A DNA stretch of 25,785 nucleotides. It comes from a virus. Position 1 is the first letter of the stretch. Every line of letters starts with the position of its first letter. The notes under the pieces were generated by a model, which worked only from the letters and a program-made list of their open reading frames with translations, searched no databases and was not told the DNA's origin. Shown piece by piece: positions 255 to 17,541 of this stretch. The position numbers and the translations under genes were made by a program. The stretch lies in the IMG/VR virus record IMGVR_UViG_3300027906_000137, positions 1 through 25,785 of that record; one strand, 5' to 3'.

Positions 255-1361
255 TTATAACTCACTTTCAAAAGCTAAATAGGCTGATGTTGAATCCCTA
301 GCTATAGCATTAGCTCCTCGTCCTGCTGTTAAAGTGCCAGAACCTGTTGGAAAAGTTACAGCACTCCCCCAAACACTTGGATTATTAATTGTAGGTACAT
401 CCGAAAGAGCAACAGTATCTATAGAATAAGCATAAAATGTATCTGCCGCTGTTGTTTCTAAAACTGGAATATGGTTCATTTCAACAGGAAAATTTTGATG
501 CAACCTAGCGGCAGTAGCGGAGGCATTATGCCCTGAACCCCAATACGAGTAAGCACTCCCTGCTTGCCGTTTTAAATAGTACCTTTGGCACTTTCTAAAA
601 GTAGCCTCATATGGTTCATGCTCAAATTCCGTAGCCTTCTCGCCAATCTCAAGTTGCACTCCAGTAAGGAAGAATGTTCTGCTAGTGCTGTCAAAGAAGG
701 AGGTTGCACTACTATTACCACGATTTGCTGTTGTAGCACTTGCCCAAGCAGATGAATTTGTAGTACCAGATGTAAAGTTTGAACCATCGTGTAGATGTAT
801 TGCTAACTGAAGACTAAGAGCATTATCATCATCTAAAGCACCTGTAGTATCAGCAGGAAAAGTTAATTCTACTCTACTCCAAGAAGTTGTAACAGAAAAT
901 GTTTTACTTATTTGTCTAGTATTATCCGCATCATATAATTCTGCCACATAGGTTGCACTAGCATTTCCTTTAACATAAAAACTTGCTGTTATAGGTTTTG
1001 CATCTGCTGTTCCTTTAGCAATAGACTGAAGATTTTGTCCTTCCATCCTATGTTGCAAATGGAAATACTCAGTAGCCGCTACTGATGTATCAGCCGTAGT
1101 ACAGCTTAATTTTAAACAATTAGCAAATCCACTAGGACCATCAGCAATTATAGCACTTGTAAATCTTCCTGCGGTGTTGCCTAACGAATGACAAAATCTG
1201 TCAGCAGTATTATAAGTAGCACCATCCGCACCAAGACCTGTAGTTGACGTACCTCTTTGTGCCACGTTCATATTTCCATTTATGATAAAATTCTTTGCCG
1301 CTAACGAGCTACCATTGTTCACATTGGCAATTAGTGCCGCTAGTTCTGCCGCTTTACTCAT
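255..1361 (-). CDS. Tail fibre / receptor-binding-like protein, 368 aa
   Basis: This is the longest protein of the fibre array. It starts with a short helical segment (residues 1-20), followed by the KNFIINGNMNVAQRGTS signature near residues 23-39, typical of many phage tail-associated proteins. A beta-rich region follows, with SFYVKG, SWSRVELTFP and GVQLEIGEKATEFEHEPYE (about 125-255) ending in CQRYY. That layout resembles a carbohydrate-binding jelly roll. The last 110 residues are a separate serine/alanine-rich module, possibly the tip. It overlaps the upstream gene by ATGA. A role in host-surface glycan binding is inferred from the fold-like pattern and position. Confidence 0.75.
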   Translation of the reverse strand: MSKAAELAALIANVNNGSSLAAKNFIINGNMNVAQRGTSTTGLGADGATYNTADRFCHSLGNTAGRFTSAIIADGPSGFANCLKLSCTTADTSVAATEYFHLQHRMEGQNLQSIAKGTADAKPITASFYVKGNASATYVAELYDADNTRQISKTFSVTTSWSRVELTFPADTTGALDDDNALSLQLAIHLHDGSNFTSGTTNSSAWASATTANRGNSSATSFFDSTSRTFFLTGVQLEIGEKATEFEHEPYEATFRKCQRYYLKRQAGSAYSYWGSGHNASATAARLHQNFPVEMNHIPVLETTAADTFYAYSIDTVALSDVPTINNPSVWGSAVTFPTGSGTLTAGRGANAIARDSTSAYLAFESEL

Positions 1362-1744
1362 GCTAAATCTCCGTGTACCGTAACGGCATTATCTGCATCT
1401 TGTGCAGTACCATTATTATCTGCAAAACTTATCCTATAGCTAGATGTTGCTCTTAATTTATTCCACACAATTCTAGTATTATCTTCAGCACCAGTAGGCA
1501 CAGCAGAAAAATTTGTGTTACCAAGATTAGTGCTTACAGCATAACTATAATCCCCTGTACCATTATCTGTACCACCAGATACATTTAAACTATCTGCAGG
1601 ACTTGCAGAACTACTGGCTAACACCCATGATTTAGCTAAACCCTGCTGTAGATTAGTCGTAGTGCTATTACCTTCACCTGTGACTGCAATGCTACCTGCT
1701 GTGCTAACTCCTGTGAGTGTATTTACTTTGAGTTCAGATGCCAT
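1358..1744 (-). CDS. Fibre-array protein, GDLA-ending family, copy 1 (128 aa)
   Basis: One of three paralogues with 5335-5742 and 5742-6176. The first 40 residues (LKVNTLTG, AGSIAVTGEG, STTTNLQQGLAKSW) closely match those of 5742-6176, and all three end in V/I-x-G-D-L-A. The middle (DNGTGDYSYAVSTNL) matches the NGTGDYTHTYSNAM of the second copy. This copy lacks the NGTGTIAHRDSFN segment of the other two, so the centre has diverged. No membrane segment. Translation is coupled to its neighbours (TAATG upstream, ATGA downstream). Likely a short trimeric fibre or tip subunit; the function is inferred from context. Confidence 0.75.
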   Translation of the reverse strand: MASELKVNTLTGVSTAGSIAVTGEGNSTTTNLQQGLAKSWVLASSSASPADSLNVSGGTDNGTGDYSYAVSTNLGNTNFSAVPTGAEDNTRIVWNKLRATSSYRISFADNNGTAQDADNAVTVHGDLA

Positions 1745-2700
1745 TACTTAGCCTCCAGTACCGCTATACGAGCCTCTAATTCCTGTATGGTTTTAACAAG
1801 AAGTGGTACTAATTTTGACTGGTCGATGCCTTGTGGCTCAATATTTCCATCTTTATCTACAGCGTCTTTTTTACCAATAATAGCTTCTGGCACAATGCTA
1901 CTTACTTCATGGGCTAAAAATCCATCTACTGTTGTATCTTTGTCTGCCTTGAAGTTAAACCTACTTGGCTTGAGTTGTTTTAACCTTGATGTAGCATCCC
2001 AATCTGTAACTACATTTTCTTTTAAACGATAGTCTGAAGTTGTATTGAAGGAAGTTGATGAGCCGTTGGTAGTTATTGAACCTATTGCGGAACTATCTCT
2101 ATAAAAATACATCAAACCACTGACATTAGACCCAGTTTTGAGATACATAACTGCATATCCACCTGCTGTATTTGTATGAAAATATCCTGCATAGCCATCA
2201 GTTGTTCCTGAGTCAACCGCAAGTTTAGCATAGCCATAAGCTACTCCCATCTCTACAAGGCCTGCACTGGTTATTCTCATACGTTGTGCAACACCCGCAC
2301 CAGACTTAGCAGTAGCAAAAACTAACGTACCTACACGACTAGTACCAGTTCCATCAGCATCACCATGAACACCATAAATAGCCGAATCAATTCCACCTGC
2401 ACTATTTTCAAAGTATAGGGTAGAGTAATTACCATCTGTCGTACCTGTGTTTTTAAGAGATAATGCCGCACCTGCACCTGAATCTACGTTAGTGGTGTTT
2501 TCTGAACTTGCTAAAGTAGTATGTGTAGTTGCAGTAGCCGCAGAAGTAGTCCCTAACATTAATCTACCAGTGCTATCAATACGCATACGTTCTGTATTTG
2601 CTGTCTTTACTGCAACAACATCGTTTGTTGAGAGGTCAACTCCGCTATCGTTGTCTCCACCTTCGTTATGTATTTTGTCTACTCTAATTTCACTTGTCAT
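1744..2700 (-). CDS. Tail fibre with C-terminal S74 intramolecular chaperone domain, 318 aa
   Basis: The N-terminus carries the short tag MTSEIRVDKI shared by other proteins in this array. A beta-rich shaft contains two copies of an RMRI-x-S-x-G motif (about 38-50 and 139-152). From residue 222 there is a typical Peptidase_S74 domain: SDYRLKENV, FLAHEVSSIVPEAIIG, DKDGNIEPQGID, and a final coiled coil QELEARIAVLEA. In this family the domain trimerises and folds the fibre, then cuts itself off. The serine of SDYRLK (S222) and the lysine five residues on (K227) fit the known Ser-Lys dyad, so cleavage just before S222 is predicted. The mature fibre would be about 221 residues. Confidence 0.9.
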   Translation of the reverse strand: MTSEIRVDKIHNEGGDNDSGVDLSTNDVVAVKTANTERMRIDSTGRLMLGTTSAATATTHTTLASSENTTNVDSGAGAALSLKNTGTTDGNYSTLYFENSAGGIDSAIYGVHGDADGTGTSRVGTLVFATAKSGAGVAQRMRITSAGLVEMGVAYGYAKLAVDSGTTDGYAGYFHTNTAGGYAVMYLKTGSNVSGLMYFYRDSSAIGSITTNGSSTSFNTTSDYRLKENVVTDWDATSRLKQLKPSRFNFKADKDTTVDGFLAHEVSSIVPEAIIGKKDAVDKDGNIEPQGIDQSKLVPLLVKTIQELEARIAVLEAK

Positions 2701-2704
2701 TTAT

Positions 2705-3199
2705 TTATCCTATTAAATATCCTTCAAAACAAGGGTCGTATTGGGGGTTTGTATCAGAGTATGCAAACTCACCACCTATATTTACTTTAATTTCGTCACC
2801 TGAACTTAATAGTGAAGTGGAGTTTCCAACAAGAGTAGCATGGAAATTAGTAGCCGCACTATAAAAATAAAATCTACCTCCAGGCAAAGCACTACCATTC
2901 AAAAGAAAATCGCCATACGGATACTCACCAGCGGTATTTGCACTACCAGTGTTATTAGTAGAAGTCAAACACCTAAACATAATATGATAAAGACCAGTAG
3001 TAGGGACAGTAAATATCCCAGTTGATGTATTATAATTCCCACCAATATCAAAGTCTTCTGTTTCAAACACTAAAACTCCAGTGTCACCATGACCACCAGT
3101 TGAACCTGCAATTCTAGCTCTAAAAGCAGGTCTATCAGGTGTTAAAAAGCCTTGACCTGTTCTACCTTCAATGTTGTCTAATACAAGTTTACTTGTCAT
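2705..3199 (-). CDS. C1q-like jelly-roll fibre protein, copy A (164 aa)
   Basis: The start is the ATG at 3199, which overlaps the upstream stop as ATGA and has GGAG before it; a TTG further up is less likely. The N-terminal tag MTSKLVLDNIEG is followed by TPDRPAFRA, then a C1q/TNF-like pattern: YNTSTGIFTVPTTGLYHIMF, then GDFLLNGS, and the closing CFEGYLIG. Metazoan and bacterial C1q domains share the F-x-x-P-x-x-G-x-Y core and a C-terminal F-x-G-x-L. It is one of three such proteins here. Trimeric C1q heads bind varied ligands, so a fibre-tip adhesin is a reasonable inference. Confidence 0.8.
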   Translation of the reverse strand: MTSKLVLDNIEGRTGQGFLTPDRPAFRARIAGSTGGHGDTGVLVFETEDFDIGGNYNTSTGIFTVPTTGLYHIMFRCLTSTNNTGSANTAGEYPYGDFLLNGSALPGGRFYFYSAATNFHATLVGNSTSLLSSGDEIKVNIGGEFAYSDTNPQYDPCFEGYLIG

Positions 3200-3660
3200 A
3201 CTATACTCCAATGTCCTGCAACAGTTACAGTGCTGGATGAATTAATTGTTATTGGTCCTGCCGATAATCCATTTGTACTACTATCTATACTTATATCTGT
3301 TTCTACTGTAGCACCATTAGTTCTGATGATTGAGTTGTTACCTAAGAATGGATAGCGTGTATCTGCCTGTGTCTTAGTGTAGCTATCAGCTACGTCAAAC
3401 ACATCGTAGACTACCATCTCAACTACGTCATTAGCTGATGCTGAACTTTCTAGTACAACTGTTGTACCTGTCGTAGCGGTATAGTCGGTTGAAGGTTTGA
3501 GTAACACCCCATTTTGATAAACGTCCATATACAAACTATCTGGATAGCTAAGTGTTAGCGAATTGCTATCACTGCCACTAAAAGAAGTCTGTGCTGCAGT
3601 CGCTTGGTATATATAGCGATTACGGACTGAGTTCTTTGGTGCTTTACCTATGTATGGCAT
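3196..3660 (-). CDS. Tail-fibre-like protein with MPYIGKAP N-terminus, 154 aa
   Basis: The N-terminus MPYIGKAPKNSVRN is common in marine phage fibre proteins. A small beta domain follows (about 20-90: QTSFSGSDSNSLTLSYP, DVYQNGVLLKPSTDYTATTGTTVVL), of the type also present in the protein at 6701-7156, then VYDVFDVADSYTKTQADTRYPF and a beta-rich tail ending GHWSIV. The domain pattern resembles virion-attachment domains at the N-terminus of larger fibres, but here it stands alone as a short ORF. It overlaps both neighbours (TAATG and ATGA). Confidence 0.7.
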   Translation of the reverse strand: MPYIGKAPKNSVRNRYIYQATAAQTSFSGSDSNSLTLSYPDSLYMDVYQNGVLLKPSTDYTATTGTTVVLESSASANDVVEMVVYDVFDVADSYTKTQADTRYPFLGNNSIIRTNGATVETDISIDSSTNGLSAGPITINSSSTVTVAGHWSIV

Positions 3661-3923
3661 TACTTCTCTCTATCTGCTCTGTTCTTATAATCACTTCTTG
3701 CCGTAACTAATTTTACAAAGTCTGCTTGATTGCTTGGGATTGGGTCTGTAAAACTACTGTCGTTCATCAGATTTGTTGTCCACTCTGACTGCATCCTTTT
3801 CCATGCGTTATTTACTTTTCCTGTCATTGCCGCTTGTAGCCACGCATCTAAGTCTAGTAAATCGTTTTTTAATATTGTTTGTTCTGTGTCTGAAAGTTCC
3901 ACAGTTAATGTTAGTTTTGCCAT
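3660..3923 (-). CDS. Small conserved protein, possible tail-fibre assembly factor, 87 aa
   Basis: A compact, mostly helical protein: a short beta start (MAKLTLTVELSDTEQ), a helix with LLDLDAWLQAAMTGKVNNAWKR, then DPIPSNQADFVKLVTARSDYKNR. Similar short proteins sit among fibre genes in marine phages. There are no membrane segments and few glycines, which sets it apart from the beta-rich, serine/threonine-rich fibre proteins around it. A chaperone or connector role is possible but not shown by any motif. It is coupled to the next gene by TAATG. Confidence 0.65.
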   Translation of the reverse strand: MAKLTLTVELSDTEQTILKNDLLDLDAWLQAAMTGKVNNAWKRMQSEWTTNLMNDSSFTDPIPSNQADFVKLVTARSDYKNRADREK

Positions 3924-3933
3924 TTGTTTCTCC

Positions 3934-4452
3934 TTAACATGCTAAAAAGCCACTAAAAAAACTATTAGTTTGTACATCCATTTGTGAAGACCCTGAGTTA
4001 TGCAGGTCAAGCCTAACATATGCTGTGTCACTTGCATCCATGTCTGCTAAAATAGCTAGCTTAAATACAAAATAATGTAAGTCACCACTAAAATCTGGTT
4101 CTATTATGTCGTAGTAAGTTCTGTTAGATGTAAGAAGAGTACACTGCACCCAACTAGTAGCAGTATCCAAATGTTGAACATATATATGAACATTTAGCTG
4201 ATATCTACCTGTTACAGGAGCGGTAAAAGTATTGGATGCAAAATCTCCATTTTGGTCATATATTTCTGTTCCAAATACTATAGTCGTATCTGCATTTATT
4301 GGAATATTATCTTGAGAAGATGCAGGTTGTACTAAAAAAGCAGGTTGTAATGGCTTGGTCATAATACCATCAGTATCTAATACTAAGGTATTACTCCCTG
4401 CTAGAGTTGTCTGAGTACCTAGTCCTCGTCCTGTAACTTGTGTTAGTGCCAT
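3934..4452 (-). CDS. C1q-like jelly-roll fibre protein, copy B (172 aa)
   Basis: The N-terminal lead MALTQVTGRGLGTQTTLAG differs from the other tags and is followed by the linker MTKPLQPAFLV, where PAF aligns with the RPAF of copies A and C. The C1q-like core is NTFTAPVTGRYQLNVHIYV, with the closing FFSGFLAC. The most diverged of the three C1q-like proteins in this window. No signal peptide or transmembrane segment is visible. Likely a trimeric adhesin subunit. Confidence 0.78.
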   Translation of the reverse strand: MALTQVTGRGLGTQTTLAGSNTLVLDTDGIMTKPLQPAFLVQPASSQDNIPINADTTIVFGTEIYDQNGDFASNTFTAPVTGRYQLNVHIYVQHLDTATSWVQCTLLTSNRTYYDIIEPDFSGDLHYFVFKLAILADMDASDTAYVRLDLHNSGSSQMDVQTNSFFSGFLAC

Positions 4453-4462
4453 TTACTTATCC

Positions 4463-4834
4463 TTATGCGTAAGGGCTAGTACCCAATGTGCTTGTATCCC
4501 AAGCTGCTTTTAGCTTGGTAATATTATCTGCCGCATCTATAGCAGAGGTAGATGTTGCATCTCTCAATGCTTTCTTCTTTGTAACACACGCTGATTGTGC
4601 AGAACTATCTCCAGCTTCTAATGCTTTCATATAAACAACATCTTCAGCGTCTAATAGAGGTTGACGTACACTCCTAATTTTGTCTTTGAAGATAGCTTTT
4701 GCCTTTGTCATATCCTCTGTAATAACATCACCGTTCAGGACCCACGCTCCTCGAAAGTGTCGGTCAGAAGGTTTCGTTACACTTGAGGCATCTGCCGTAT
4801 TGCCCTTCATGTCTGTGATATAAGATTTCGTCAT
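4463..4834 (-). CDS. Tail-fibre assembly chaperone-like protein, 123 aa
   Basis: The second half is helical with the pattern AKAIFKDKIRSVRQPLLDAED, then MKALEAGDSS and KKKALRDAT. It resembles the R-x-x-L-x-x-x-D...A-L-E-x-G-D...A-L-R-D signature of phage tail assembly chaperones and tail-fibre assembly proteins. The N-terminal half (SDRHFRGAWVLNGD) may bind the fibre. It sits inside the fibre array, as such chaperones usually do. The match is by pattern only and the family is very diverse, so the call is moderate. Confidence 0.6.
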   Translation of the reverse strand: MTKSYITDMKGNTADASSVTKPSDRHFRGAWVLNGDVITEDMTKAKAIFKDKIRSVRQPLLDAEDVVYMKALEAGDSSAQSACVTKKKALRDATSTSAIDAADNITKLKAAWDTSTLGTSPYA

Positions 4835-4846
4835 AGTTTTACTCCT

Positions 4847-5338
4847 TTATGCCGCTACTTCATTGTTTATAACAAGATCCTCGCTAATTTGCCAAGCATT
4901 TCGCCATTCACGAGTTCCAGGTAATTGATCTTTCTTACAGATCACCATCTTGGGTTTGTTCGATTTATCCCAATCTCTCCACACCGTTTCTGGTATATCC
5001 TTCATTATTAAATATTCTATTGCTTCTTCTTCTGTCATAGCGTCAATAGGTTTCATATTGTGTAGAAGCTCTGGACCTCGTGTATGCTTTACAAAGTCAG
5101 GCTTGTTTTCATCTTTCTTCAGTTCCCAATAGGATTGTACTGGTGGTAGTATCCCACCCTGTAATGCACAAGCCATCCAGTTAGGGTCTGGGTGTGTAAC
5201 TTTAGCAGGGTTTTCCATATCGTTAGGGTCTTCCCATACTATGCAATACTCACTCCTGTAAGGCTCTAGCTTTTCTTTCGCCCAACATAGACGCTCCCAC
5301 AAGTGTGTGCCTTGAAACTCTGGTGTTTCTATTGTCAT
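4847..5338 (-). CDS. Conserved phage protein in the fibre array, 163 aa
   Basis: Rich in tryptophan and charged residues, quite unlike the low-complexity fibre proteins on either side. Notable segments are WERLCWAKEKLEPYRSEYCIVWEDP, HPDPNWMACALQGG and TEEEAIEYLIMKDIPETVWRDW. Similar proteins occur among tail genes of marine phages without an assigned function. It is probably a soluble assembly factor or a minor tail protein. It overlaps the next gene by ATGA. Confidence 0.65.
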   Translation of the reverse strand: MTIETPEFQGTHLWERLCWAKEKLEPYRSEYCIVWEDPNDMENPAKVTHPDPNWMACALQGGILPPVQSYWELKKDENKPDFVKHTRGPELLHNMKPIDAMTEEEAIEYLIMKDIPETVWRDWDKSNKPKMVICKKDQLPGTREWRNAWQISEDLVINNEVAA

Positions 5339-5742
5339 GCTAAGTCTCCGTGAATTGTTACTGTAGCTATTACAGCATCAGCATAGTTCATAGTATCATG
5401 TCTATTAGTGGCATGTCTCATACTGGTAGTTGTAAATGTGTCATCAATTACACCGCCAAGAAAACCGAAGTAGCTATTTACTCTAGCAAATCCACCATTC
5501 GCTTGGTTTACAGAAGCCATAGCATTACTGTAGGTATGAGTGTAATCTCCTGTTCCATTATCTGTTATTGAACCAACATTAAAGCTGTCTCTAATTGCGA
5601 TTGTGCCTGTACCATTAATGTTATTCCACACTTTAGCCACACCATTAAATACATAACTCGTATCTATAGACTTCTCAGTGCCAGTATTTACTTGGTCAGA
5701 CGTTGTGAGCGTGTCAAATGCTATTGTTCCATGTGCTACCAT
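5335..5742 (-). CDS. Fibre-array protein, GDLA-ending family, copy 2 (135 aa)
   Basis: A paralogue of the next upstream gene: VAKVWNNINGTGTIAIRDSFN, then ITDNGTGDYTHTYSNAMAS, ending VTIHGDLA. It lacks the TLTG...GLAK N-terminal segment of the other two copies and instead starts MVAHGTIAFDTLTTSDQ, so the N-terminal anchor has been exchanged while the body is conserved. It starts at a TAATG overlap directly behind its paralogue, consistent with tandem duplication. Confidence 0.75.
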   Translation of the reverse strand: MVAHGTIAFDTLTTSDQVNTGTEKSIDTSYVFNGVAKVWNNINGTGTIAIRDSFNVGSITDNGTGDYTHTYSNAMASVNQANGGFARVNSYFGFLGGVIDDTFTTTSMRHATNRHDTMNYADAVIATVTIHGDLA

Positions 5743-6176
5743 TATGCTAAGTCTCCATCTACACTAACAAAATTTAATTCCGCATCTTGATAAGCACCTC
5801 CTGACTCAAAAGAACCTAAACTTGTATTAGAAGCTGTATTACCTGTCATGCTACTATGAGATGTTCCCACAGGACAAAAAGCCGATGAGTTGAAATTATT
5901 AGTAGCATTATACGCATTACTATTTGCAGTAGGACAATGATTTGCACTTGCCATATTTGATGTAAAATTTATATCGTATTGACCTGTTCCTTGGTCAGTT
6001 AAAGTACCACAATTAAAGCTATCCCTGTGTGCGATAGTTCCAGTGCCGTTAAAATTAGTCCACGCTTTAGCTAATCCCTGTTGCATATTCGTAGTTGTAG
6101 AACCACCTTCGCCTGTCACCACGATAGAACCTGCGGATGTTTTGCCTGTTAGTGTGTTTAGTAAGAGTGTACTCAT
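5742..6176 (-). CDS. Fibre-array protein, GDLA-ending family, copy 3 (144 aa)
   Basis: Combines features of the other two copies: the N-terminal tag MSTLLLNTLTGKTSAGSIVV with GLAKAW as in copy 1, and the core NGTGTIAHRDSFNCGTLTDQ with GTGQYDINFTSNMAS as in copy 2, ending VSVDGDLA. The region between core and end (asparagine- and serine-rich, with two cysteines) is variable and may be the ligand-facing part. It is four bases from the next gene. Likely a short virion-surface protein. Confidence 0.75.
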   Translation of the reverse strand: MSTLLLNTLTGKTSAGSIVVTGEGGSTTTNMQQGLAKAWTNFNGTGTIAHRDSFNCGTLTDQGTGQYDINFTSNMASANHCPTANSNAYNATNNFNSSAFCPVGTSHSSMTGNTASNTSLGSFESGGAYQDAELNFVSVDGDLA

Positions 6177-6179
6177 GTT

Positions 6180-6704
6180 TTATCCTATTAAATACCCACC
6201 AAAATGACTACTCGTACCTGCCGCTCCTCCACTTCCAGGGTAATAACCAGAAGCTGTATCATCCGCATGATAATAATATGCAGCAACAGTATCATTTGCA
6301 GCTAAATTTAATACATCATAAATTTGCCCTGTCCGTGACATCCCTGTACCACTAGAGTCAAGAATAAGATTACCAGAATATCTAGCATCATTTTTATAAA
6401 GATATATATACCTTGTACCACCAGAAGCATGAGAATAAGCTATTGCCCAAAAGTAATACAAACCTGATACTGGAGCAGTAAATTTGTAAGTACTAGTATT
6501 ATAGTGACTTCCAATATTGTAATCTGTAGTATTAAAAGCCATTATTGTAGTTGTATTGTGAGTTATTTCAATCCATGAAGTTCCTGAATTATACGCTCTA
6601 AATGCAGGTCTAGCAGGAGTTAGTACTCTACCACTGCTATCCATTGTTAAACCATCTGCACTGCCTCCAGAACTTCTTATAGCATCTACTTTTAATGTAC
6701 TCAT
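6180..6704 (-). CDS. C1q-like jelly-roll fibre protein, copy C (174 aa)
   Basis: The clearest of the three C1q-like proteins. The N-terminal tag MSTLKVDAIRSSGG is followed by DSSGRVLTPARPAFRAYNSG, then the core FNTTDYNIGSHYNTSTYKF with TAPVSGLYYFWAIAYS, YIYLYKNDARY, and the closing SSHFGGYLIG. The F-x-A-P-V-x-G-x-Y-x-F motif and the F-x-G-Y-L end match the C1q family consensus. At about 140 residues the domain is full length. The glycine-rich GSGGAAGTSS loop near the end may be exposed. Probable trimeric receptor-binding head. Confidence 0.85.
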   Translation of the reverse strand: MSTLKVDAIRSSGGSADGLTMDSSGRVLTPARPAFRAYNSGTSWIEITHNTTTIMAFNTTDYNIGSHYNTSTYKFTAPVSGLYYFWAIAYSHASGGTRYIYLYKNDARYSGNLILDSSGTGMSRTGQIYDVLNLAANDTVAAYYYHADDTASGYYPGSGGAAGTSSHFGGYLIG

Positions 6705-7156
6705 AGTACTACTAGCCTCCCACCTGATTCAATCGTTAGTGTTACACCAGAAGCAACAGACAAAGTTCCTGTTGCATTAGCGTTTTCAGTTGCCAATATA
6801 GTAAGATCAGAAGTTAGAGACTGTGCATTAGTCCTAAACAAACCCCCTGCCTTAAAATTACCTTTGTTTTCTGCGGCAGGTGTAACTGTCTCAAAAGTTC
6901 TGCCAAAGAACATTACAAAGATGTTATTACCTGAATTAGAAGAAGGTGCGGCAGTAAAAGTTAAAGTTACTCCATCAGGTACGGTATAAGCTCCAGTAGG
7001 CTCTTGAACCACTCCGTCTACGGAAACCACAATATCTTGCTCAGAACTTACCGTATTATTTAAAGTGAAAGTAGTAGTGCTACCATCCCCACTAAACTCT
7101 TGTCTTGTAGGTAAACTAGAGAAAGCCGTTGATGGACTTGTGCCATAATAAGGCAT
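6701..7156 (-). CDS. Tail-fibre N-domain-like protein, 151 aa
   Basis: The first 90 residues (MPYYGTSPSTAF, RQEFSGDGSTTTFTLN, VVSVDGVVQEPTGAYTVPDG, NIFVMFFGR) form a small beta domain recurrent at the N-terminus of phage fibres, also seen in the protein at 3196-3660. The rest (RTNAQSLTSDLTILATENAN, SVASGVTLTIESGGRLVVL) has the regular short-strand pattern of a beta-helix or fibre tip. It overlaps both neighbours, ATGA downstream and TAATG upstream. It could attach other short fibres to the virion. Confidence 0.72.
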   Translation of the reverse strand: MPYYGTSPSTAFSSLPTRQEFSGDGSTTTFTLNNTVSSEQDIVVSVDGVVQEPTGAYTVPDGVTLTFTAAPSSNSGNNIFVMFFGRTFETVTPAAENKGNFKAGGLFRTNAQSLTSDLTILATENANATGTLSVASGVTLTIESGGRLVVL

Positions 7157-7494
7157 TAGCTTGTAATCTCCATAATTGATAGCACAGTATCTAGTGAGTC
7201 TGCGGTGTTAGAAGCAACTTGTAAGGTATCTCCTGACTCCATAATAATCTTATTACCCCCCATATATTCAAAACTAGATCCAGCAGGGATCGGTATGGCC
7301 TTTGCCAAGAAAACAGACTGACCTGCCATTAGTTTTATATCGGCTGTAATTTGGCTTGAAGTCGTGTTGGCTAGAGTTAATCCTATAACAACCGTTGCGG
7401 TAAGATTTGTAGTATTTGCCGTATACACGCTCATTAGTGCATTAGCAGAAGTATTGGCTCCACTATACACTTTATTTTTAAAGGTATTAGCCAT
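7156..7494 (-). CDS. Conserved virion-associated protein, 112 aa
   Basis: A beta-rich protein with the pattern TATVVIGLTLANTTSSQITADIKL, then FLAKAIPIPAGSSFEYM, MESGDTLQVAS and DTVLSIMEIT. The alternating hydrophobic strands and the LESGDT-like motif recur in a family of small structural proteins of marine phages, probably a single beta sandwich. No membrane segment. Exact role unknown; the context says tail or fibre. Confidence 0.7.
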   Translation of the reverse strand: MANTFKNKVYSGANTSANALMSVYTANTTNLTATVVIGLTLANTTSSQITADIKLMAGQSVFLAKAIPIPAGSSFEYMGGNKIIMESGDTLQVASNTADSLDTVLSIMEITS

Positions 7495-7503
7495 TATCTA
7501 CTC

Positions 7504-7965
7504 CTATGCTACATCATCTAATAAAGCCGCTACTATGCAGTTTGATGTTCCAGATGCAACTAATGCGTGAATATCTCCCACTATTTGTTTTGGCAATCTA
7601 GCACAAAAAAACTCATTCTCTCCAATATGAAATGCCTCTGTTGCGGTAGAAGAAGGAGTGCTTCCGTCTATTGTTAAATACACAGTGCCAGAACCTACAT
7701 TTTTTACAAATAAAAACATGACTAAATCATTTGTGTGTATAGCCGTTAACCCTGTATCATCGTTAATAGCGGCTCTAGGAATAAAAGATCCTGCCATTAA
7801 ATCAGTATCATTGGTATCTACGCTAGTAAGTTTATAGTACCATTTTTGACTAGCATCATCACTCCCACCTGGAGTCGGACTTACTGTCATTGTTGACGAA
7901 AATACTTTTGAAATTTCATCAGGTAAACCCTGAACTTGTATTGTAGCTATTGCATCATCTGCCAT
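7504..7965 (-). CDS. Putative structural protein of the fibre array, 153 aa
   Basis: Beta-rich with few charges: DDASQKWYYKLTSVDTNDTD, LVMFLFVKNVGSGTVYLTIDG, FHIGENEFFCARLPKQIVGD, ending AALLDDVA. I recognise no named family. Its composition, length and spacing match its neighbours, and the second half resembles the small beta-sandwich protein at 7156-7494. Ten bases separate it from the next gene, with no terminator or promoter in that gap. Confidence 0.65.
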   Translation of the reverse strand: MADDAIATIQVQGLPDEISKVFSSTMTVSPTPGGSDDASQKWYYKLTSVDTNDTDLMAGSFIPRAAINDDTGLTAIHTNDLVMFLFVKNVGSGTVYLTIDGSTPSSTATEAFHIGENEFFCARLPKQIVGDIHALVASGTSNCIVAALLDDVA

Positions 7966-7979
7966 TTTTACCTCCTATA

Positions 7980-8597
7980 TCAGCCCAAAGCGATGGCAAG
8001 TGCTGTGGGATCGTCCGTAACGTATCCAGCACTCGTTAAATACGTTTTTACATTAGATAATGCCACCTGTCTCATTACTCCACCTGTACCACCATCATTA
8101 ACAACAAGATTATCCGCGTCTAATAAAGTAATAGTATCCGTAGACGCATTACCGTCAATTATATTTAACTCGGTTGTCGTAACACTAGCACCATCCAATA
8201 TCTCTAATTCAGCCTCAGTAATAGCCGCACTACCGATTGTTAGTCCTGTAGAGGTCAAAACTCCAGCAATAGATACGTTATTACTTGCATCTTCAATAAC
8301 AGACTTTTCAGCAGGTAACGTACAGAATATCTGCCTTGTTCCAGCACTCCAGTTCACTGCACTATCACTATTGCTAGATTGTAAGATAGTTGTTCTAGCT
8401 AAAGTTGTGCCACTAGAAGCATAAGTTCCTACACCAACCTCAAAATTGGTTCCGTCAGTACAACAATAATATGTCGTGTTGGTGTTGCCAATAGAACCAA
8501 AAGTTTCAAAACCAGTTACGGCTCCTGCAAGGGTATAGGTTCCTGTGCCTGTAGTAGTAGTGGTTTCTCTTACACGATCAGCAACGACATGAGCCAT
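7980..8597 (-). CDS. Tail fibre protein with ELNILDG-type repeats, 205 aa
   Basis: The first 100 residues (VADRVRETTTTTGTGTYTLA, GFETFGSIGNTNTTYYCC, FEVGVGTY, LARTTILQSSNS, FCTLPAEKS) belong to a very common marine-phage tail-fibre N-terminal domain. Residues 129-149 hold two copies of an ELNILDG-type repeat (AELEILDG and TELNIIDG, 13 residues apart). Longer phage fibres carry many such repeats as a shaft, so here the shaft is reduced to two units. The C-terminal 50 residues resemble fibre segments that normally continue into a receptor-binding head, which is absent. Confidence 0.8.
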   Translation of the reverse strand: MAHVVADRVRETTTTTGTGTYTLAGAVTGFETFGSIGNTNTTYYCCTDGTNFEVGVGTYASSGTTLARTTILQSSNSDSAVNWSAGTRQIFCTLPAEKSVIEDASNNVSIAGVLTSTGLTIGSAAITEAELEILDGASVTTTELNIIDGNASTDTITLLDADNLVVNDGGTGGVMRQVALSNVKTYLTSAGYVTDDPTALAIALG

Positions 8598-9049
8598 TAT
8601 GCAATCCTTATTATAGCGTTAGAAGCATCTGCTGTTGGAAATGTTACAGTAAATGTACCAGAAGTAGAAGTTTTGTTACTTGTAAAATCTAACACCGCTA
8701 CGGCCTTGTCACTGTTAGTATCGTTATAGATTAACGCACCCATTGCAGTAATTGTAGCCGTTGTAAAGCTTATATCTGAAAAATCAGTAAGAGCCGTTGT
8801 TCCTGAAGTAGTCGGTGCAACTTTTGTTAAAGCTCCTCCACCAGCAGTATAAGATCCGCTATTTGCCACTTCGCCAGTTGTGGTGTATGCAGTTGTTGCG
8901 GCCCCTAAAGTAGCCGTAGTAGAAGATTTTCCTCCTCCACCCTCTGCGTACAAGGCAAGCTTAAAAGCATTGCCGTTAGTTGCAAAATTATGTGTGCCTA
9001 ACATCAGTTCTTGCTTAAAAGATGTACACATTGCTTGAGTAATTGCCAT
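8597..9049 (-). CDS. Conserved phage structural protein, 150 aa
   Basis: It starts MAITQAMCTSFKQELMLGTH, continues with FKLALYAEGGGGKSSTT and a beta-rich GS-rich body (GALTKVAPTTSG, DISFTTATITAMGALIYND, AVAVLDFTSNKTSTSGTFT), and ends IIRIA. This architecture is widespread in marine podoviruses and siphoviruses next to neck and fibre genes and is usually found in virions. A good SD (AGGAGG) lies inside the end of the upstream gene, with a TAATG overlap. Confidence 0.75.
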   Translation of the reverse strand: MAITQAMCTSFKQELMLGTHNFATNGNAFKLALYAEGGGGKSSTTATLGAATTAYTTTGEVANSGSYTAGGGALTKVAPTTSGTTALTDFSDISFTTATITAMGALIYNDTNSDKAVAVLDFTSNKTSTSGTFTVTFPTADASNAIIRIA

Positions 9050-9336
9050 TATAGCCTCCTTATGATATTTGCTAATTCTTTGTTACCAGTTTGTTCAATT
9101 ACTTGAATAATTGTAGCACGTTCTTCTTTCTTTGCCAAATCAACATATCCTCTAAGTAGATTTCTTACACGATCAGCAAACAAACGAGCTTGTTCTTGTA
9201 TAGCAGGAGGAGCATTATCTGCTACATATACTATTTTATCCGTAGCCATATCAGCAATCTGGTCGCTTGAAAAACCACCATTTTGAGAAGTATTTACTTT
9301 TACGTTACCTATCTCTGCTGCATTAATTTGAAACAT
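9049..9336 (-). CDS. Small helical phage protein, 95 aa
   Basis: The start is the ATG at 9336 (MFQINAAEIGN), with GGAG about nine bases before it; a TTG at 9345 is less likely. The N-terminal third is polar. The rest is strongly helical (PPAIQEQARLFADRVRNLLR, LAKKEERATIIQVIEQTGNK). Similar helical proteins sit between adaptor and fibre genes in marine phages. It may act as a chaperone or regulator. It overlaps the preceding gene by 14 bases. Confidence 0.68.
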   Translation of the reverse strand: MFQINAAEIGNVKVNTSQNGGFSSDQIADMATDKIVYVADNAPPAIQEQARLFADRVRNLLRGYVDLAKKEERATIIQVIEQTGNKELANIIRRL

Positions 9337-10036
9337 GATTATCAACTCCGTTTAGTTTTTGTATATCATGTCTTCCAAAAAGTATAGGCTTATTGTCTAT
9401 AGGCTCTGGTGGAGCAATTTCAGACTGTTTTGTAATTAAAAGACCTTGTTCGTTAAATTGTTGAACCAAAGGATCGTCTAATCTGTGATATCCATACAAT
9501 TTTTCACTATCAGGTACATTCGTATCTAACAACCCGGATCTGTTAGCAACTTCTACTTTTATACCTTTTGACACAGCCGTAGCACACCAGAACTCTGTGC
9601 AAGCTCTGCCAGATTCTGCCATATAGATATTGTCCTTATATGTATAATCTATCCCATAAAGGCAAATGGAAGAGACATTACGATATATAGCATAACCAAT
9701 AGCGTAAGGTACAGTGTTGTTAAAATAACAAAGATTGGTAGATTTAATGACCTCTTCGAGTGGATATAATTTAAGATTTTTGACTCTTTTATCCAGTTGG
9801 CAAGTGTAGATAGGATTTTTGTTCTTTTTAAGAAATTCATTGGCTATGCCTGTTTGCAGTCCTGCGTTATCCGTATCTAGAAAACGGGATACAGGATCCA
9901 TCATAAAGGTCTTGTCCACATGAATTATTGCACCAATACAATTAATCCCCCAAACTTCATCAAACTTTTCTGATCTTATTCGAGCCGCTATGTAATCTGC
10001 ATAACTTCCTCCAAGCCCAATTATCGCTACTCTCAT
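9323..10036 (-). CDS. Rossmann-like MptE/DUF115- or sialyltransferase-like protein, 237 aa
   Basis: Residues 2-16 (RVAIIGLGGSYADYI) form a beta strand and glycine loop. The central part has EVWGINCIG (27-35), DKTFMMDP (41-48) and, near 124-130, ICLYGIDY followed by a gap, AESGRACTEFWCATAVSKGI and VEV. This order resembles the MptE-like DUF115 fold and CstII-type (GT42) sialyltransferases, where a G-I/Q-D motif follows a hydrophobic strand. Such enzymes act on nucleotide sugars or pterins. It sits inside the structural operon with an ATGA overlap, so it may modify virion or host surface glycans. The activity is inferred from weak motif likeness only. Confidence 0.55.
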   Translation of the reverse strand: MRVAIIGLGGSYADYIAARIRSEKFDEVWGINCIGAIIHVDKTFMMDPVSRFLDTDNAGLQTGIANEFLKKNKNPIYTCQLDKRVKNLKLYPLEEVIKSTNLCYFNNTVPYAIGYAIYRNVSSICLYGIDYTYKDNIYMAESGRACTEFWCATAVSKGIKVEVANRSGLLDTNVPDSEKLYGYHRLDDPLVQQFNEQGLLITKQSEIAPPEPIDNKPILFGRHDIQKLNGVDNHVSN

Positions 10037-10680
10037 GTTCTTGGTCTCTCTGGCAGTCCTCTCCTGTACGAATCTGCATTTTCTCGTGCTTCAGCGAACT
10101 CTTTTAGTCTTAATAAAGATTCTGAATATCGATCGCTGTACATTTTCAATACATCTGCTTCACCCTTCATAAACACATAAGCCTCCATCAGGCTTCCATA
10201 TAAAAGAGCATTAGGAGCGTTTGTACTTAGCCAGGTTGTACCACTATCACTTCCAGCAGTTAAACTAGTAGGTCTATAATAATAATGAACCTCAGTAACA
10301 TACGCAGCATCTGGAGTTGGGGCTATAATAAAATTAGAAGAATCGAATAAAGCATAATACTTTGGGGTACCTGTAGTTGATGAGTTAGGATTATACTCTT
10401 GAATATAGTTAACATCCTTCTGTAACAAAAACTCTTTAGAACTAGAATTTGTTATAGAAACACTAAAAGCTGATAGAAAGTCAGAAGGCACAGCAAGATA
10501 TTGATTACTTATAGTCATCGATGCTGTAGCGTTTTTCCTAAAGTACTCCAAATCTACTGATTTAAGAATCCGTTCTTCTGCCGTTTTTATAAATGTATCA
10601 AGGGTTGCCACAAAAGTAGTTTCTGCGTTATCCGTATAACTTTGGATGGCTGTTTTTAGTCCTGAATATGTAAAACTCAT
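10033..10680 (-). CDS. Head-tail adaptor protein, 215 aa
   Basis: A helical N-terminus (LKTAIQSYTDNAETTFVATL, KTAEERILKSVDLEYFRK) is followed by a beta core (YLAVPSDFLSAFSVSI, KDVNYIQEYNP, YYALFDSSNFIIAPTPDAAY, EVHYYYRP) and a helical end with LLYGSLMEAYVFMKGEADVL. This is the pattern of phage neck adaptor proteins of the SU10/T7 gp11-like type found in marine podoviruses. It lies two genes after the gp4-like adaptor, as expected of a neck module, and both flanking overlaps are ATGA. Confidence 0.8.
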   Translation of the reverse strand: MSFTYSGLKTAIQSYTDNAETTFVATLDTFIKTAEERILKSVDLEYFRKNATASMTISNQYLAVPSDFLSAFSVSITNSSSKEFLLQKDVNYIQEYNPNSSTTGTPKYYALFDSSNFIIAPTPDAAYVTEVHYYYRPTSLTAGSDSGTTWLSTNAPNALLYGSLMEAYVFMKGEADVLKMYSDRYSESLLRLKEFAEARENADSYRRGLPERPRT

Positions 10681-10994
10681 GATGTAGTCACCGTAACTGT
10701 TCCAACTGAAGCCGTAACCTCAAAAGATTCCAATAATTTACCAATTATACCATCTCCACTATTCGTATAAACCACAAAACCAGTAGTTTCTGTAGCAGTA
10801 TCTGGTCGAGCGTTTCTAATAGTCTGAGCGTCTGCTCTGACCCTTTTAGGCTCTAGTTGCGGATGTTTAGGCTCATACTCATCTTTTCCAACAAGAGAAC
10901 CATTCCACTCAAATCTCATATCCCTTAATCTGTACCTAAATCCAGATCTATCCGATATTCCATAAGCATGCTTTCCTTGTGCAAACCCTGCCAT
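10677..10994 (-). CDS. Small neck-region protein, 105 aa
   Basis: Lies between two adaptor genes with 4-base or shorter overlaps on both sides. The N-terminal part is basic and aromatic (GKHAYGISDRSGFRYRLRDM, FEWNGSLVGKDEY), the middle has KHPQLEPKRVRADAQ, and the end is a short beta region (SFEVTASVGTVTVTTS). Similar small proteins are conserved between adaptor genes in marine phages. Probably a minor virion protein of the neck; no enzyme motif is seen. Confidence 0.7.
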   Translation of the reverse strand: MAGFAQGKHAYGISDRSGFRYRLRDMRFEWNGSLVGKDEYEPKHPQLEPKRVRADAQTIRNARPDTATETTGFVVYTNSGDGIIGKLLESFEVTASVGTVTVTTS

Positions 10995-11662
10995 TATACC
11001 CTCATATAGTCCATTCCAGGCTGAAGCTTCAAGGAAACTCTATCTTCATCCTCATCTGCGGCTCGTTGAAATTCTTCTTCGTAAATAGACTTTAACATCT
11101 GAACTCTCTCAGGGGCTTTCTTTATCGCTATATAATAAGCTAGTCCAGCAACCATACAAGGTAAAAACCTAAACGGAGCATCCGTAGTATTTTGCAACGC
11201 ATCAACGTCCTGAATCCTATTTACATAATAATAAACTAGGGTATCTGTAGAGTCATTCGGAGTTGGCCATAGCGTTATTGATGGGGTCACTTGTCTATTG
11301 TAGAAGTACTGTGTTGGTCTGCCTGTATTCGTTTTATTCGGTATAGCTAGATACTCACTCCTAGACATCTTACTAAGAGAAGTATCAACACTACTACTAT
11401 TCCTTACGACCACCTCTAACAAATCGGTGTAGTTTGATGCCAAAGAATATGCAGCAGTACCAGAAACAAGAGACAAAGTAGCTTGTGTAACCGTCCATAA
11501 ATTTAATCCCCTGTTTGCCCAATCAGCAAACATAAGGTTCATGGATCTTCTTGCAGTACGAGCGTCATAGCCAGTTCTTACTTCTAAACCGCAACGCTCA
11601 TACGCTTCTTCAATTATCTCAGCGACATCAAGGTCAAAATCTCTAGAACTGGACGTTGTCAT
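10994..11662 (-). CDS. P22 gp4-like head-tail connector / DNA-stabilisation protein, 222 aa
   Basis: The N-terminus AEIIEEAYERCGLEVRTGYD, RSMNLMFADWANRGLNLWTV is the hallmark of gp4-like head completion proteins, followed by beta strands (TLSLVSGTAAYSLASNYTDL, YLAIPNKTNTGRPTQYFYNR, ITLWPTPND) and a C-terminal helix region with FLPCMVAGLAYYIAIKKAPE. In P22, gp4 binds the portal and closes the packaged head. P22 gp4 is shorter (166 aa), but marine versions of about 220 residues are usual. Its spacing from the next gene (ATGA) shows tight coupling. Confidence 0.85.
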   Translation of the reverse strand: MTTSSSRDFDLDVAEIIEEAYERCGLEVRTGYDARTARRSMNLMFADWANRGLNLWTVTQATLSLVSGTAAYSLASNYTDLLEVVVRNSSSVDTSLSKMSRSEYLAIPNKTNTGRPTQYFYNRQVTPSITLWPTPNDSTDTLVYYYVNRIQDVDALQNTTDAPFRFLPCMVAGLAYYIAIKKAPERVQMLKSIYEEEFQRAADEDEDRVSLKLQPGMDYMRV

Positions 11663-13084: not shown

Positions 13085-13993
13085 TTACGCTCCGGGAGAA
13101 CCGTATACGCAACGTGGGTCAGAATAACCAAAAGAATAACGCTCACGAGCCTTATATCTCATGTTACCTGTGTCAAAGTCTGCTTCCATATTAGTTGAAA
13201 GAGGTGTTCTTTCAAAATGTAGGAAACCCCTTGGAGCGTCAGTCATAACGAAGAATGCATCGGTATCAGTTAAAAAGTCATTAACTGAGTATCCTTCAGG
13301 CAACATTCCCATGTTGCTCATAGCATTTACGTCATTATCCGCTGTTCCGGGACGCAGTGTTGAAGACATTAACCTGTCAGCGATAAACTGCAACTGACGA
13401 GGAATAATAAGCTTCATGCCTCGAAGTGCGACCTTCAAGCCTCTTTCATCAGTATAACCAGCGATATCAATGAGAGCGTTCTCAAGAGAAGTCTCATTCA
13501 AATCTGCAGCTGTAGAAGGTTCATTTCTCAACGTACCACCATTTGTTAGTGGGTGGTCAGTTGCACAAAGTTCCTTTCCATCACCGCCTGTCACCGTGGA
13601 GTCAAAAGCGTTGTTAAGAACAGCAGCTGCCTTAACTTGCTTTGTGTGTGCCATGGATCGTGCAAGAGCACGAGTATAACGAGAAGAAAGTCTGTCATAC
13701 AGATTATCTTCCACAGCTTCCTCAGTAATTGAGAATGCTAGTGCTATAGTCTCGTGGTTGTACCTAGCAGTGAAAGATTCTACCGCATCATCAAATGATA
13801 CAGCCGAACCTTCAGACTTAGTTGGTGCAGCTCCAAAACCAGAGAGCATTACTTCTTCTTCAAATGCACGATCTGAAGACTCAGTAGTGTAAATCTCTGC
13901 GTGTTGGTTCTCATACCGAGCGTATTCCATGCCAAATAAGGCATTAAGACCAGGCTCGAGTTCTTTAGAGAGTTGTGCTCTAGAAATTGCCAT
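13085..13993 (-). CDS. Major capsid protein, 302 aa
   Basis: It starts MAISRAQLSKELEPGLNALF, then GMEYARYENQHAEIYTTESS and DRAFEEEVMLSGFGAAPTKS, followed by RALARSMAHTKQVKAAAVLN, a KELCATDHPLTNGGT loop, and a C-terminal part with DTDAFFVMTDAPRGFLHF and ARERYSFGYSDPRCVYGSPG. This is the layout of the HK97-fold capsid protein of many uncultured marine phages. At about 300 residues it has the usual length. Position supports the call: scaffold, a small protein and a decoration-like protein upstream, a strong terminator behind. No prohead-protease domain is seen nearby. Confidence 0.88.
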   Translation of the reverse strand: MAISRAQLSKELEPGLNALFGMEYARYENQHAEIYTTESSDRAFEEEVMLSGFGAAPTKSEGSAVSFDDAVESFTARYNHETIALAFSITEEAVEDNLYDRLSSRYTRALARSMAHTKQVKAAAVLNNAFDSTVTGGDGKELCATDHPLTNGGTLRNEPSTAADLNETSLENALIDIAGYTDERGLKVALRGMKLIIPRQLQFIADRLMSSTLRPGTADNDVNAMSNMGMLPEGYSVNDFLTDTDAFFVMTDAPRGFLHFERTPLSTNMEADFDTGNMRYKARERYSFGYSDPRCVYGSPGA

Positions 13994-16050: not shown

Positions 16051-16521
16051 CTATATATGGTAAATATCGTCTGGCTCAAGAATAGTTGCGATTATTTCAT
16101 CATCGTTTAGAATCCGAACTTCACCACCTTCAATCTTAAACCGAGAACCTGCATAGCGTCCTATACACACCCACTCGCCCTCTTTACACCAGGGTTCAGC
16201 GTTTTCCCCAAACTTGTTGGGGTCTTTGTATGCCATAGGGCCTACTCGTAGAACATAAGCTACAACCGTAGCTAATGCTTCCCGTTCTCTTATCTGATCA
16301 GGAACAATTAATCCTCCATCCGTCTTTACTCGTCCTTGATAAGGCATAACAAGAATACGCCAACCAGTTGGTTGCGGTAATCTTTCAAGCAAGGATTTTT
16401 CTAGAAGGGAAGGATCTAAGACCTTATTATTTGCATCAACATAAGCTTTTTTAGCGTTCTGTTGTTTTTCTTCATTTCTTTTCTGCACTATATGGTCAGG
16501 AACGTATAATGTCTTCTGCAT
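16051..16521 (-). CDS. GroES-like co-chaperonin, 156 aa
   Basis: I chose the ATG at 16521 (MQKTLYVPDHIVQKR); a GTG at 16587 would overlap the upstream gene by 92 bases. After a charged helical extension (1-50), the GroES fold covers residues 51-150: PTGWRILVMPYQGRV, the mobile loop TDGGLIVPDQI (68-77) that in GroES contacts GroEL, then ATVVAYVLRVGP, CKEGEWVCIGRYAGSRFKIE and DDEIIATILEP. T4 gp31 is the model: a phage co-chaperonin that lets host GroEL fold the capsid protein. Its place beside scaffold and capsid genes fits. The long N-terminal extension is unusual for GroES. Confidence 0.85.
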   Translation of the reverse strand: MQKTLYVPDHIVQKRNEEKQQNAKKAYVDANNKVLDPSLLEKSLLERLPQPTGWRILVMPYQGRVKTDGGLIVPDQIREREALATVVAYVLRVGPMAYKDPNKFGENAEPWCKEGEWVCIGRYAGSRFKIEGGEVRILNDDEIIATILEPDDIYHI

Positions 16522-16708
16522 CGTCAGTGTTTTTCTCCAGCAGGGCTTTAAATTCCATTCTGGCAAAGGCGATGCCCCGTATCTCACCTACCATCATTTT
16601 ATACTGCTCCCAATCTTTGGGAACATCATTAGCAAGAGCATCTTTTAGTTGTTCTTCACGCTCTCCTAAAACCTTATACATATGTTCTGCATATGTTACA
16701 ACATCCAT
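16496..16708 (-). CDS. Small helical protein upstream of the co-chaperonin, 70 aa
   Basis: Almost entirely helical: MDVVTYAEHMYKVLGEREEQ, LKDALANDVPKDWEQYKMMV, GEIRGIAFARMEFKALLEKN. The pattern of a helical hairpin with a GEIRGI turn is seen in small proteins beside head genes in many phages. It overlaps the co-chaperonin gene by 26 bases. No SD of strength is visible (AAAAATG before the start). Possible assembly factor; function unknown. Confidence 0.65.
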   Translation of the reverse strand: MDVVTYAEHMYKVLGEREEQLKDALANDVPKDWEQYKMMVGEIRGIAFARMEFKALLEKNTDDAEDIIRS

Positions 16709-17255: not shown

Positions 17256-17530
17256 TAAAAAAGTCCTTTACAGCCTGTTCCTTTAACAGCGGCACCTGTG
17301 CCTGCCATAGAATATCCAACACTACCGCCAATCGTATAACCTTTCATTTTAACATGGCCACCGCCCATATAACTGGAGTATTTTCTAGTGGATGAGTCTT
17401 TAAAGAAATGCTTTCCACCTTTTGTGTACATATACATTAACCCATCAGAGTCCTTTAGTCCTCTCTTAAAAGCTTCTTCAAACGCTTGGCCTTCATCTAT
17501 AACTATAATGTTTTCGTCTTTTTCTGCCAT
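17255..17530 (-). CDS. Small protein with KGY-GG motif and KGLF tail, 91 aa
   Basis: The N-terminal half is mixed helix/strand (ENIIVIDEGQAFEEAFKRGL, LMYMYTKGGKHFFKDSSTRK). The C-terminal 40 residues are glycine-rich: GGGHVKMKGYTIGGSVGYSM, GTGAAVKGTGCKGLF. GG-x-VK-x-KGY-x-x-GG aligns with the tail of the 113-aa protein downstream, and the end KGLF corresponds to KGTF. A strong SD (AAGGAG) lies upstream. Unknown function. Confidence 0.68.
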   Translation of the reverse strand: MAEKDENIIVIDEGQAFEEAFKRGLKDSDGLMYMYTKGGKHFFKDSSTRKYSSYMGGGHVKMKGYTIGGSVGYSMAGTGAAVKGTGCKGLF

Positions 17531-17541
17531 ATCTTATCTCC

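Follow-up and report, generated by a model that had tools for sequence, protein, structure and literature searches.

Exchange of predicted adhesin heads behind slot-specific N-termini in a probable split-fibre array of a marine virus of bacteria

Results

Two anchors and a row of short adhesin genes

The virus record IMGVR_UViG_3300027906_000137, which is described as short, comes from a marine virus of bacteria, and the stretch analyzed here (the window) is the whole of that record, 25,785 bases corresponding to the structural half, with its main genes all on the minus strand. Between positions 255 and 9049 lie 17 short open reading frames (ORFs) of 87-368 residues, all likewise on the minus strand, most of which overlap by ATGA or ATG/stop. 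An earlier, sequence-only reading had described these as about fifteen short proteins, which gave their size correctly and undercounted them, and had proposed a fibre array in which a common docking tag, borne by several of them, is joined to swappable adhesins, perhaps as a way to present many receptor binders on one virion. Our comparisons show that two anchors, each with a T7-fibre-like N-terminus and a shared C-terminal domain (CTD), precede runs of short genes for predicted adhesins.

Read along the minus strand, anchor A is directly preceded by a conserved gene (7156-7494) for a 112-residue protein that is 33% identical to gene 42 of the cultured SAR116 phage HMO-2011 and 37% identical to its counterpart in 023Pt_psg01; this class comprises 132 ORFs in the loci compared. 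Anchor A itself (T7N-A; 6701-7156, 151 residues, 66% identical to HMO-2011 gene 41) joins a T7-fibre-like N-terminal domain, barely above the cut-off for PF03906 (Phage_T7_tail; 25.5 versus 25.2 bits) and matching positions 1-159 of the 373 in phrog_18673, to the CTD at about residues 104-151 (6704-6847). Three predicted adhesins follow. Slot A1 (6180-6704) bears the tag MSTLKVDAI (6678-6704) and a C1q head (PF00386, 46.5 bits, cut-off 23.7); slot A2 (5742-6176) the tag MSTLLLNTL (6150-6176), a linker and a GDLA head (phrog_11355); and slot A3 (5335-5742) the module MVAHGTIAFDTLTTS.. (5707-5742), a divergent tag, with a second phrog_11355 GDLA head.

The middle of the array begins with two assembly-like proteins, putative chaperones. 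One (4847-5338, 163 residues, 67% identical to HMO-2011 gene 36) has no Pfam hit and lies between the A and B blocks in relatives; the other (4463-4834, 123 residues, phrog_20196, 64% identical to HMO-2011 gene 35) matches phrog_8746, 'tail fiber assembly', weakly (E 0.011). Slot M1 (3934-4452) then combines a MALTQV.. module with a C1q head (35.9 bits), and slot M2 (3660-3923) encodes a small protein of 87 residues in the position held by tail assembly chaperones in some relatives; PF16778 is found in the M2 protein of one relative (L162) and in HMO-2011 gene 38, and gave no hit to the M2 protein of the window.

Anchor B (T7N-B; 3196-3660, 154 residues, 71% identical to HMO-2011 gene 33) ends in the CTD as judged by a hidden Markov model (HMM; about 3199-3342, ending ..STVTVAGHWSIV) and, unlike the related anchor A, has no PF03906 hit; over the anchors as a whole, Pfam returned just PF03906, DUF4183 and weak hits. 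Behind it come slot B1 (2705-3199), with the tag MTSKLVLDNI (3170-3199), whose start is an ATG within a listed TTG ORF, and a C1q head (31.4 bits); slot B2 (1744-2700), with the tag MTSEIRVDKI (2671-2700), a shaft and an S74 chaperone (PF13884, 30.4 bits, cut-off 22; motif SDYRLK at residues 222-227, of the SDxRxK type whose Ser is the self-cleavage site in intramolecular chaperone fibres; phrog_18673 positions 129-367); and slot B3 (1358-1744), with the tag MASELKVNTL (1715-1744) and a third phrog_11355 GDLA head. The terminal slot (255-1361) encodes a 368-residue fibre (MSKAAEL.., NFIINGNMNVAQRG..) that matches the tail fiber family phrog_4492 (E 2e-41) and is 39% identical to HMO-2011 gene 28.

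The five tags quoted in the sequence-only reading, those of A1, A2 and B1-B3, are true N-termini, and the bodies of the array do differ as it had said, with C1q in three genes (2705, 3934 and 6180), S74 in one (1744) and GDLA in three (1358, 5335 and 5742). Not every ORF encodes a fibre, however: two are anchors, two or three are assembly-like proteins, and three are tail-module genes that lie outside the array proper (7504-7965, 7980-8597 and 8597-9049). The window lacks the single chain of anchor, shaft and receptor-binding tip of a T7-like fibre, its heads being separate genes.

N-terminal types follow gene position

About 90 IMG/VR contigs share, as far as each reaches, a common gene order: conserved gene, anchor A, A1-A3, the 4847 class, the 4463 class, M1 (often accompanied by a small chaperone-like gene), anchor B, B1-B3 and terminal fibre. 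The recurrence of this order in the contigs and in HMO-2011, which obeys the same slot grammar, rules out artefactual gene splitting through frameshifts. Slots were set from gene order alone, and N-termini were inspected afterwards. In place of the single common tag proposed earlier, they form a slot-specific set, with 9-mers in the block behind anchor A, MALT... in the middle and 10-mers in the block behind anchor B. By regular expressions composed after the sequences had been seen, and counting distinct proteins across body classes, the 9-mer occurs in 64 of 66 for A1 and 55 of 58 for A2; the A3-type module in 44 of 51, with MANGTIAFDTL as a variant of the same hydrophobic pattern; the MALT[KQR] module in 33 of 35 for M1, where it precedes at least three classes of body; and the 10-mers MxSxLxVDxI in all 66 proteins of B1-B3 (17/17 for B3 alone).

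Several controls bear on the reality of these tags. The pattern M[ST]x(L/I)x(V/L)(D/N)x(I/L) begins five of the 17 ORFs, compared with a mean of 0.004 in 20,000 shuffles. Among related loci fetched by anchor or adaptor, in whose choice the tag played no part, it begins 116 of 2,271 ORFs (0.24 expected) and occurs at none of 5,570 internal Met positions, a control indicating that the ORF caller, which favours a tagged ATG where a choice exists, adds little bias. Scanning IMG/VR with the reverse-translated tag yielded at least 120 stretches; almost every one opened a long reading frame, and the bodies that followed were highly diverse. A scrambled pattern of equal degeneracy found zero matches. 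A chance resemblance of the N-termini is ruled out by the shuffles, the internal-Met control and the scrambled-pattern scan. Counted by class, with the tag-scan loci included, the tag is borne by 148 of 364 GDLA, 28 of 64 C1q, 7 of 26 S74 and 20 of 52 proteins of the 255-1361 class, and by none of 235 anchors, 240 adaptors or the assembly-like proteins. Tag codons in slots A1, A2, B1 and B3 show purifying selection, with a ratio of nonsynonymous to synonymous polymorphism (pN/pS) of 0.13-0.39 at a pS of 0.55-0.64; the ratio for A3, inflated by ungapped alignment, was not used. Because synonymous sites are close to saturation, conservation of the tag at the DNA level only can be rejected.

Bodies are exchanged behind fixed N-termini

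To compare the two halves of the same proteins, a contrast internal to the data set, we used 223 proteins of the GDLA class. N-module identity was 0.669 within slots and 0.348 between them, a difference of 0.322 as against at most 0.013 after shuffling, whereas body identity was 0.326 within slots and 0.324 between. The nearest neighbour on another contig came from the same slot for 219 of the 223 proteins when judged by N-module and for 70 when judged by body; since related contigs are not independent, we attach no probability to this test. Body classes were assigned by class HMMs; single-linkage clustering of bodies was discarded, as it merged most classes via shared linkers.

At the DNA level, bodies that occupy different slots reach 99.7% identity between a GLAKxW pivot and the GDLA-stop codon and are unrelated outside these limits. 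For instance, a single site in about 310 bases, running from the AK.W pivot to the stop codon, separates the A2 body of contig L136 from the M1 body of contig L137, and five further pairs are alike. Conversely, a given slot holds different bodies. Behind MTSKLVLDNI in slot B1, the window has C1q, and L185, L196 and L200 have GDLA; behind RVDKIHNEGGDNDSG in slot B2, the window has S74, L185 and L195 have GDLA, and L196 has another body. The A2 body of the window recurs at 73% identity in L165 behind MASELRVNTL, and its B1 C1q body is 87% identical to the A1 body of L211, a relative with an adaptor identical to that of the window, where it follows MSTLKVQEI.

Because the N-terminus tracks the slot, the body does not, and near-identical body DNA recurs across slots, these comparisons of gene sequences show that bodies are exchanged behind fixed, slot-specific N-termini. 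The N-module is fixed by place and the body (H-lectin-like GDLA, C1q, S74 or other) is replaced independently of it, with crossovers mapping to conserved borders that are, for the GDLA class, the GLAKxW pivot and the GDLA-stop. The swapping of bodies envisaged in the sequence-only reading is therefore borne out by gene order in relatives: bodies, and even body classes, differ behind a fixed tag at the same position, and one body is found behind different N-termini.

A C-terminal domain precedes tagged genes

The CTD with which both anchors end spans about 45 residues and has the form (I/F)xxNxxTxxxxxTIxxxxNAxxxGPxTIxxGVTVTVxSGxxWxIV. Pfam has no family that matches it above the cut-off; in PHROG it falls at the far end of several families, some of fibres and some unknown, and it also terminates fibres with other N-termini and small proteins of 61 residues. 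Sequence matches in the PDB linking the CTD to CD276 were taken as chance (weak repeats, i-E >1 per domain). A gene bearing a loose form of the tag comes after the CTD-ending ORF in 76 of 79 cases in the anchor set, versus 109 of 711 (15%) elsewhere; in 18 of 19 in the adaptor set, versus 31 of 551 (6%); and in 48 of 83 in the tag-scan set, versus 161 of 1,031 (16%). These numbers were never attained in 1,000 within-locus shuffles. Among the loci examined, no fused protein was found in which an internal CTD leads into a tag.

In isolates, the CTD stands at the end of P-SSP7 gp17, of fibres of S-SBP1, MEP301 and ICBM1, and of short proteins that two Vibrio phages encode. In most cases short genes for adhesin-like proteins come next; S-CAM7, whose CTD-ending protein has none behind it, is an exception. 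N-terminal signatures that are specific to position, and differ in kind from the tag, are common to P-SSP7, S-SBP1, SS120-1 and RN05-S; in P-SSP7, the gene after the CTD-ending fibre begins MPITLNG...

Head folds and fused counterparts

An AlphaFold2 model of the A2 protein, built from 76 sequences (mean pLDDT 78.7), predicts a confident beta sandwich at residues 34-144, preceded by 34 residues with almost no secondary structure. This GDLA head is matched best by the receptor-binding heads of phages and by H-type lectins, at Z 7.3 to 4.5; the matches include the receptor-binding domain of Pam1 (Z 7.1, root-mean-square deviation 2.0 over 70), AP22 gp53 (Z 5.8) and Helix pomatia agglutinin (HPA; Z 5.1). 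The reference for an H-type lectin-like fibre head was the beta sandwich of pyocin and AP22 gp53 heads and of HPA, and every Z score was under 8. Searched by sequence, the PDB held no relative of the GDLA protein (E up to 1) or of the S74 protein (E up to 0.1). In BFVD, 52 entries match the GDLA head at E <0.001, some of them long cyanophage tail fibres.

Parts that are separate in the window occur joined elsewhere. Syn5 gp46 (L298 4328-8383) carries eight GDLA-type domains and a terminal S74 in one chain of 1351 residues, without a CTD; in L193, anchor B and a C1q head are fused in one ORF of 311 residues (10162-11097); and phrog_18673 joins anchor and S74 parts. Since these proteins hold such parts fused, the array can be read as a split fibre.

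Lineage and neighbouring genes

The row of short genes runs down to 255 from the SU10-type adaptor gene (10033-10680), upstream of which lie the genes for capsid (13085-13993), portal (20627-23107) and terminase (23107-24570), all on the minus strand. The head and packaging genes are of HTVC023P type, with terminase, portal and capsid homologous and syntenic; against a comparison set of the pelagiphages HTVC023P/027P, 023Pt_psg01 and DSL-LC04, identities are 68-71% for the major capsid protein, 53-60% for the large terminase subunit and 47-50% for the portal. The genes at 7504-9049 belong to the HTVC023P-type head-tail module, and those at 7980 and 8597 have syntenic relatives in these phages (41-66% identity). 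For the row at 255-7494, by contrast, the best annotated match is the array of HMO-2011, a phage of another lineage (66 and 71% identity for the anchors, 64 and 67% for the assembly-like proteins). The same anchors accompany HTVC-type head markers in 66 loci and HMO-type head markers in 11, and the array has therefore crossed lineages.

In L185, L133, L193 and others, the class of the 7980-8597 gene (205 residues in the window) is represented by a fibre-like protein of 400-1125 residues upstream of anchor A. As many relatives hold such a protein together with the array, the two can coexist, and the earlier suggestion that the array simply takes the place of a long fibre does not hold.

Several other features of the window were observed. 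A 237-residue ORF with a GxGGS-like start (9323-10036) has the adaptor gene on one side and the phrog_644 tail gene on the other; it is conserved (36 ORFs in the loci) and has no match in Pfam, PHROG or PADLOC. A phage-encoded GroES-type co-chaperonin (16051-16587, phrog_3188) is kept in HTVC023P-type relatives. Endolysin and holin genes, for lysis, sit with a nuclease gene (phrog_452) at 17745-19078, between the portal and capsid genes. Three small ORFs in succession (16914-17733) have related glycine-motif ends (KGYSRGGQFKGTF, RGYSNGGQFKGTF, KGYTIGGSVGYSMAGTG..KGLF) that are perhaps a shared C-terminal tag.

Discussion

The array is probably best understood as a set of split fibres whose heads would plug into an anchor by means of address-like N-terminal peptides. 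The anchor would attach to the tail by its T7-like domain, as T7 fibre N-termini do; in P-SCSP1u, T7-like fibre N-termini bind a dock formed by adaptor and nozzle (PMC10575957). The CTD, or the whole anchor, would then be the socket, and the tag of 9-12 residues the plug that docks each presumably trimeric head, with the tag variant serving as an address for the A block, the middle or the B block; the two middle proteins and the PF16778 proteins may help assembly. Such a phage could show several binders at once and could swap one head at a time by recombination, leaving attachment undisturbed. A broader proposal, to which we give somewhat less than even weight, is that a plug-and-socket code is widespread in marine phages, in which the CTD takes tag variants, each addressing an adhesin to a fixed place, and the heads form cassettes that can be exchanged at defined DNA borders, and that unrelated head lineages (HTVC023P and HMO-2011 types) share it, with other signatures in cyanophages such as P-SSP7.

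Certain observations weigh against docking of this kind. We found no structure or proteomics that places these proteins on the virion or the tag on the CTD: the literature searched held no virion proteomics of HMO-2011, the P-SCSP1u paper (PMC10575957) resolves the fibre N-terminus only, and the P-SSP7 adsorption paper is silent on the short proteins. The anchor model was unusable (pLDDT 55.6) and hence was not interpreted, and the fold matches of the GDLA head all fall below Z 8. The rule that a tag follows the CTD holds less well in the tag-scan set, which is diverse and in which another signature often opens the next gene, and seven A3 proteins and several others deviate from their slot type. 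A slot-specific N-terminus could, moreover, reflect inheritance in place instead of addressing. This last idea leads to an alternative that we regard as unlikely, in which the array is a mosaic by position, bodies being replaced where they stand by recombination at conserved borders, and the tag is simply the start of each trimer (a beta-strand or folding nucleus) and no address at all. Bodies are indeed flanked by conserved borders on both sides, and slot types track the anchor lineage, B1 having MTSQLNVDTI with an MPYIGRS anchor and MTSKLVLDNI with an MPYIGKA anchor; yet such a mosaic leaves unexplained why unrelated body classes bear the same tag pattern, why tags are under purifying selection where synonymous sites are nearly saturated, and why the tag follows the CTD.

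It is rather improbable that the short proteins are stacked end to end into one composite fibre, running from the anchor CTD to head 1 and onward like an assembled Syn5 gp46. The fusion of a T7-like N-terminus, eight GDLA domains and S74 in gp46, and that of anchor and S74 parts in phrog_18673, would suit this arrangement. However, GDLA proteins end in GDLA and lack the CTD, so that no socket for a next tag is seen on them, and the tags of A1, A2 and the B slots resemble one another, a likeness to be expected if docking is parallel rather than serial. That some or most of the proteins are not tail adhesins, and instead decorate the head, are secreted or act inside the cell, seems very unlikely to us: in its favour, the literature searched held no virion proteomics, and C1q and lectin folds are known in other roles, but the array adjoins tail genes, its anchor bears a T7 fibre N-terminal domain, PHROG labels the GDLA, S74 and 255-1361 families tail fibers, the folds match phage receptor-binding heads, and relatives have tail assembly chaperones among the array genes.

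Host recognition is poorly understood in abundant marine groups (SAR11, SAR116 and picocyanobacterial phages), and most such short genes are labelled hypothetical. Should the tag/CTD rule be right, ten residues and a position would suffice to recognise adhesins, the genome of a phage would reveal its repertoire, and the replacement of single heads could be traced in the ocean. It would also make testable the old question of how receptor binders are exchanged frequently without breaking particle assembly.

Among the closest known systems, HMO-2011 (a Puniceispirillum phage, GU557055, genes 28-42) resembles the window in gene order, in its two anchors (66-71% identical) and two assembly-like genes, and in seven slots with the same N-terminal types. 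Its bodies differ at most slots: GDLA for C1q in A1, M1 and B1, another body for GDLA in A2, and C1q for S74 in B2. Its head genes are of another lineage, its record labels the array genes mostly just 'putative tail fiber', and it has a 593-residue gene 'similar to side tail fiber'. P-SSP7, a cyanopodovirus, likewise has a fibre (gp17) that ends in the CTD with short adhesin-like genes (037-041) downstream, whose first-position signatures recur in S-SBP1, SS120-1 and RN05-S; unlike the window, it has one long CTD fibre of 715 residues and a first signature other than the MSTLKV tag. Syn5 shares with the window GDLA-type domains and S74 in a tail fibre but keeps them in a single chain with no adhesin array behind it.

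Short docking peptides are already known, as is receptor-domain shuffling behind conserved N-termini. Secondary receptor-binding proteins (RBPs) carry conserved N-terminal peptides in K1-5/K1E/SP6 (7 and 11 residues), in KP34viruses (MALxxLV) and in PhiK64-1, peptides whose presumed role is docking to an anchor or adapter protein (PMC6872550). Like the K1-5, G7C, KP34 and PhiK64-1 systems, the window has a short conserved N-terminal peptide on differing bodies; in K1-5, KP34 and PhiK64-1, however, the heads are large depolymerases on a T4gp10-like domain (for which we did not search here), whereas in the window they are of 100-170 residues, fill about seven slots, bear slot-specific peptides and have the CTD as candidate partner. 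Shuffling of receptor domains behind conserved N-termini in phage RBPs (PMC10684548) and host-recognition modules common to distant phages (PMC10579305) have been described; here, exchange takes place among several slots of one array and at defined DNA borders. As far as the literature searched shows, in no paper of which the string MSTLKV occurs, the new elements are the number of slots, the N-terminal form specific to each, the CTD as candidate partner and the borders of the cassettes.

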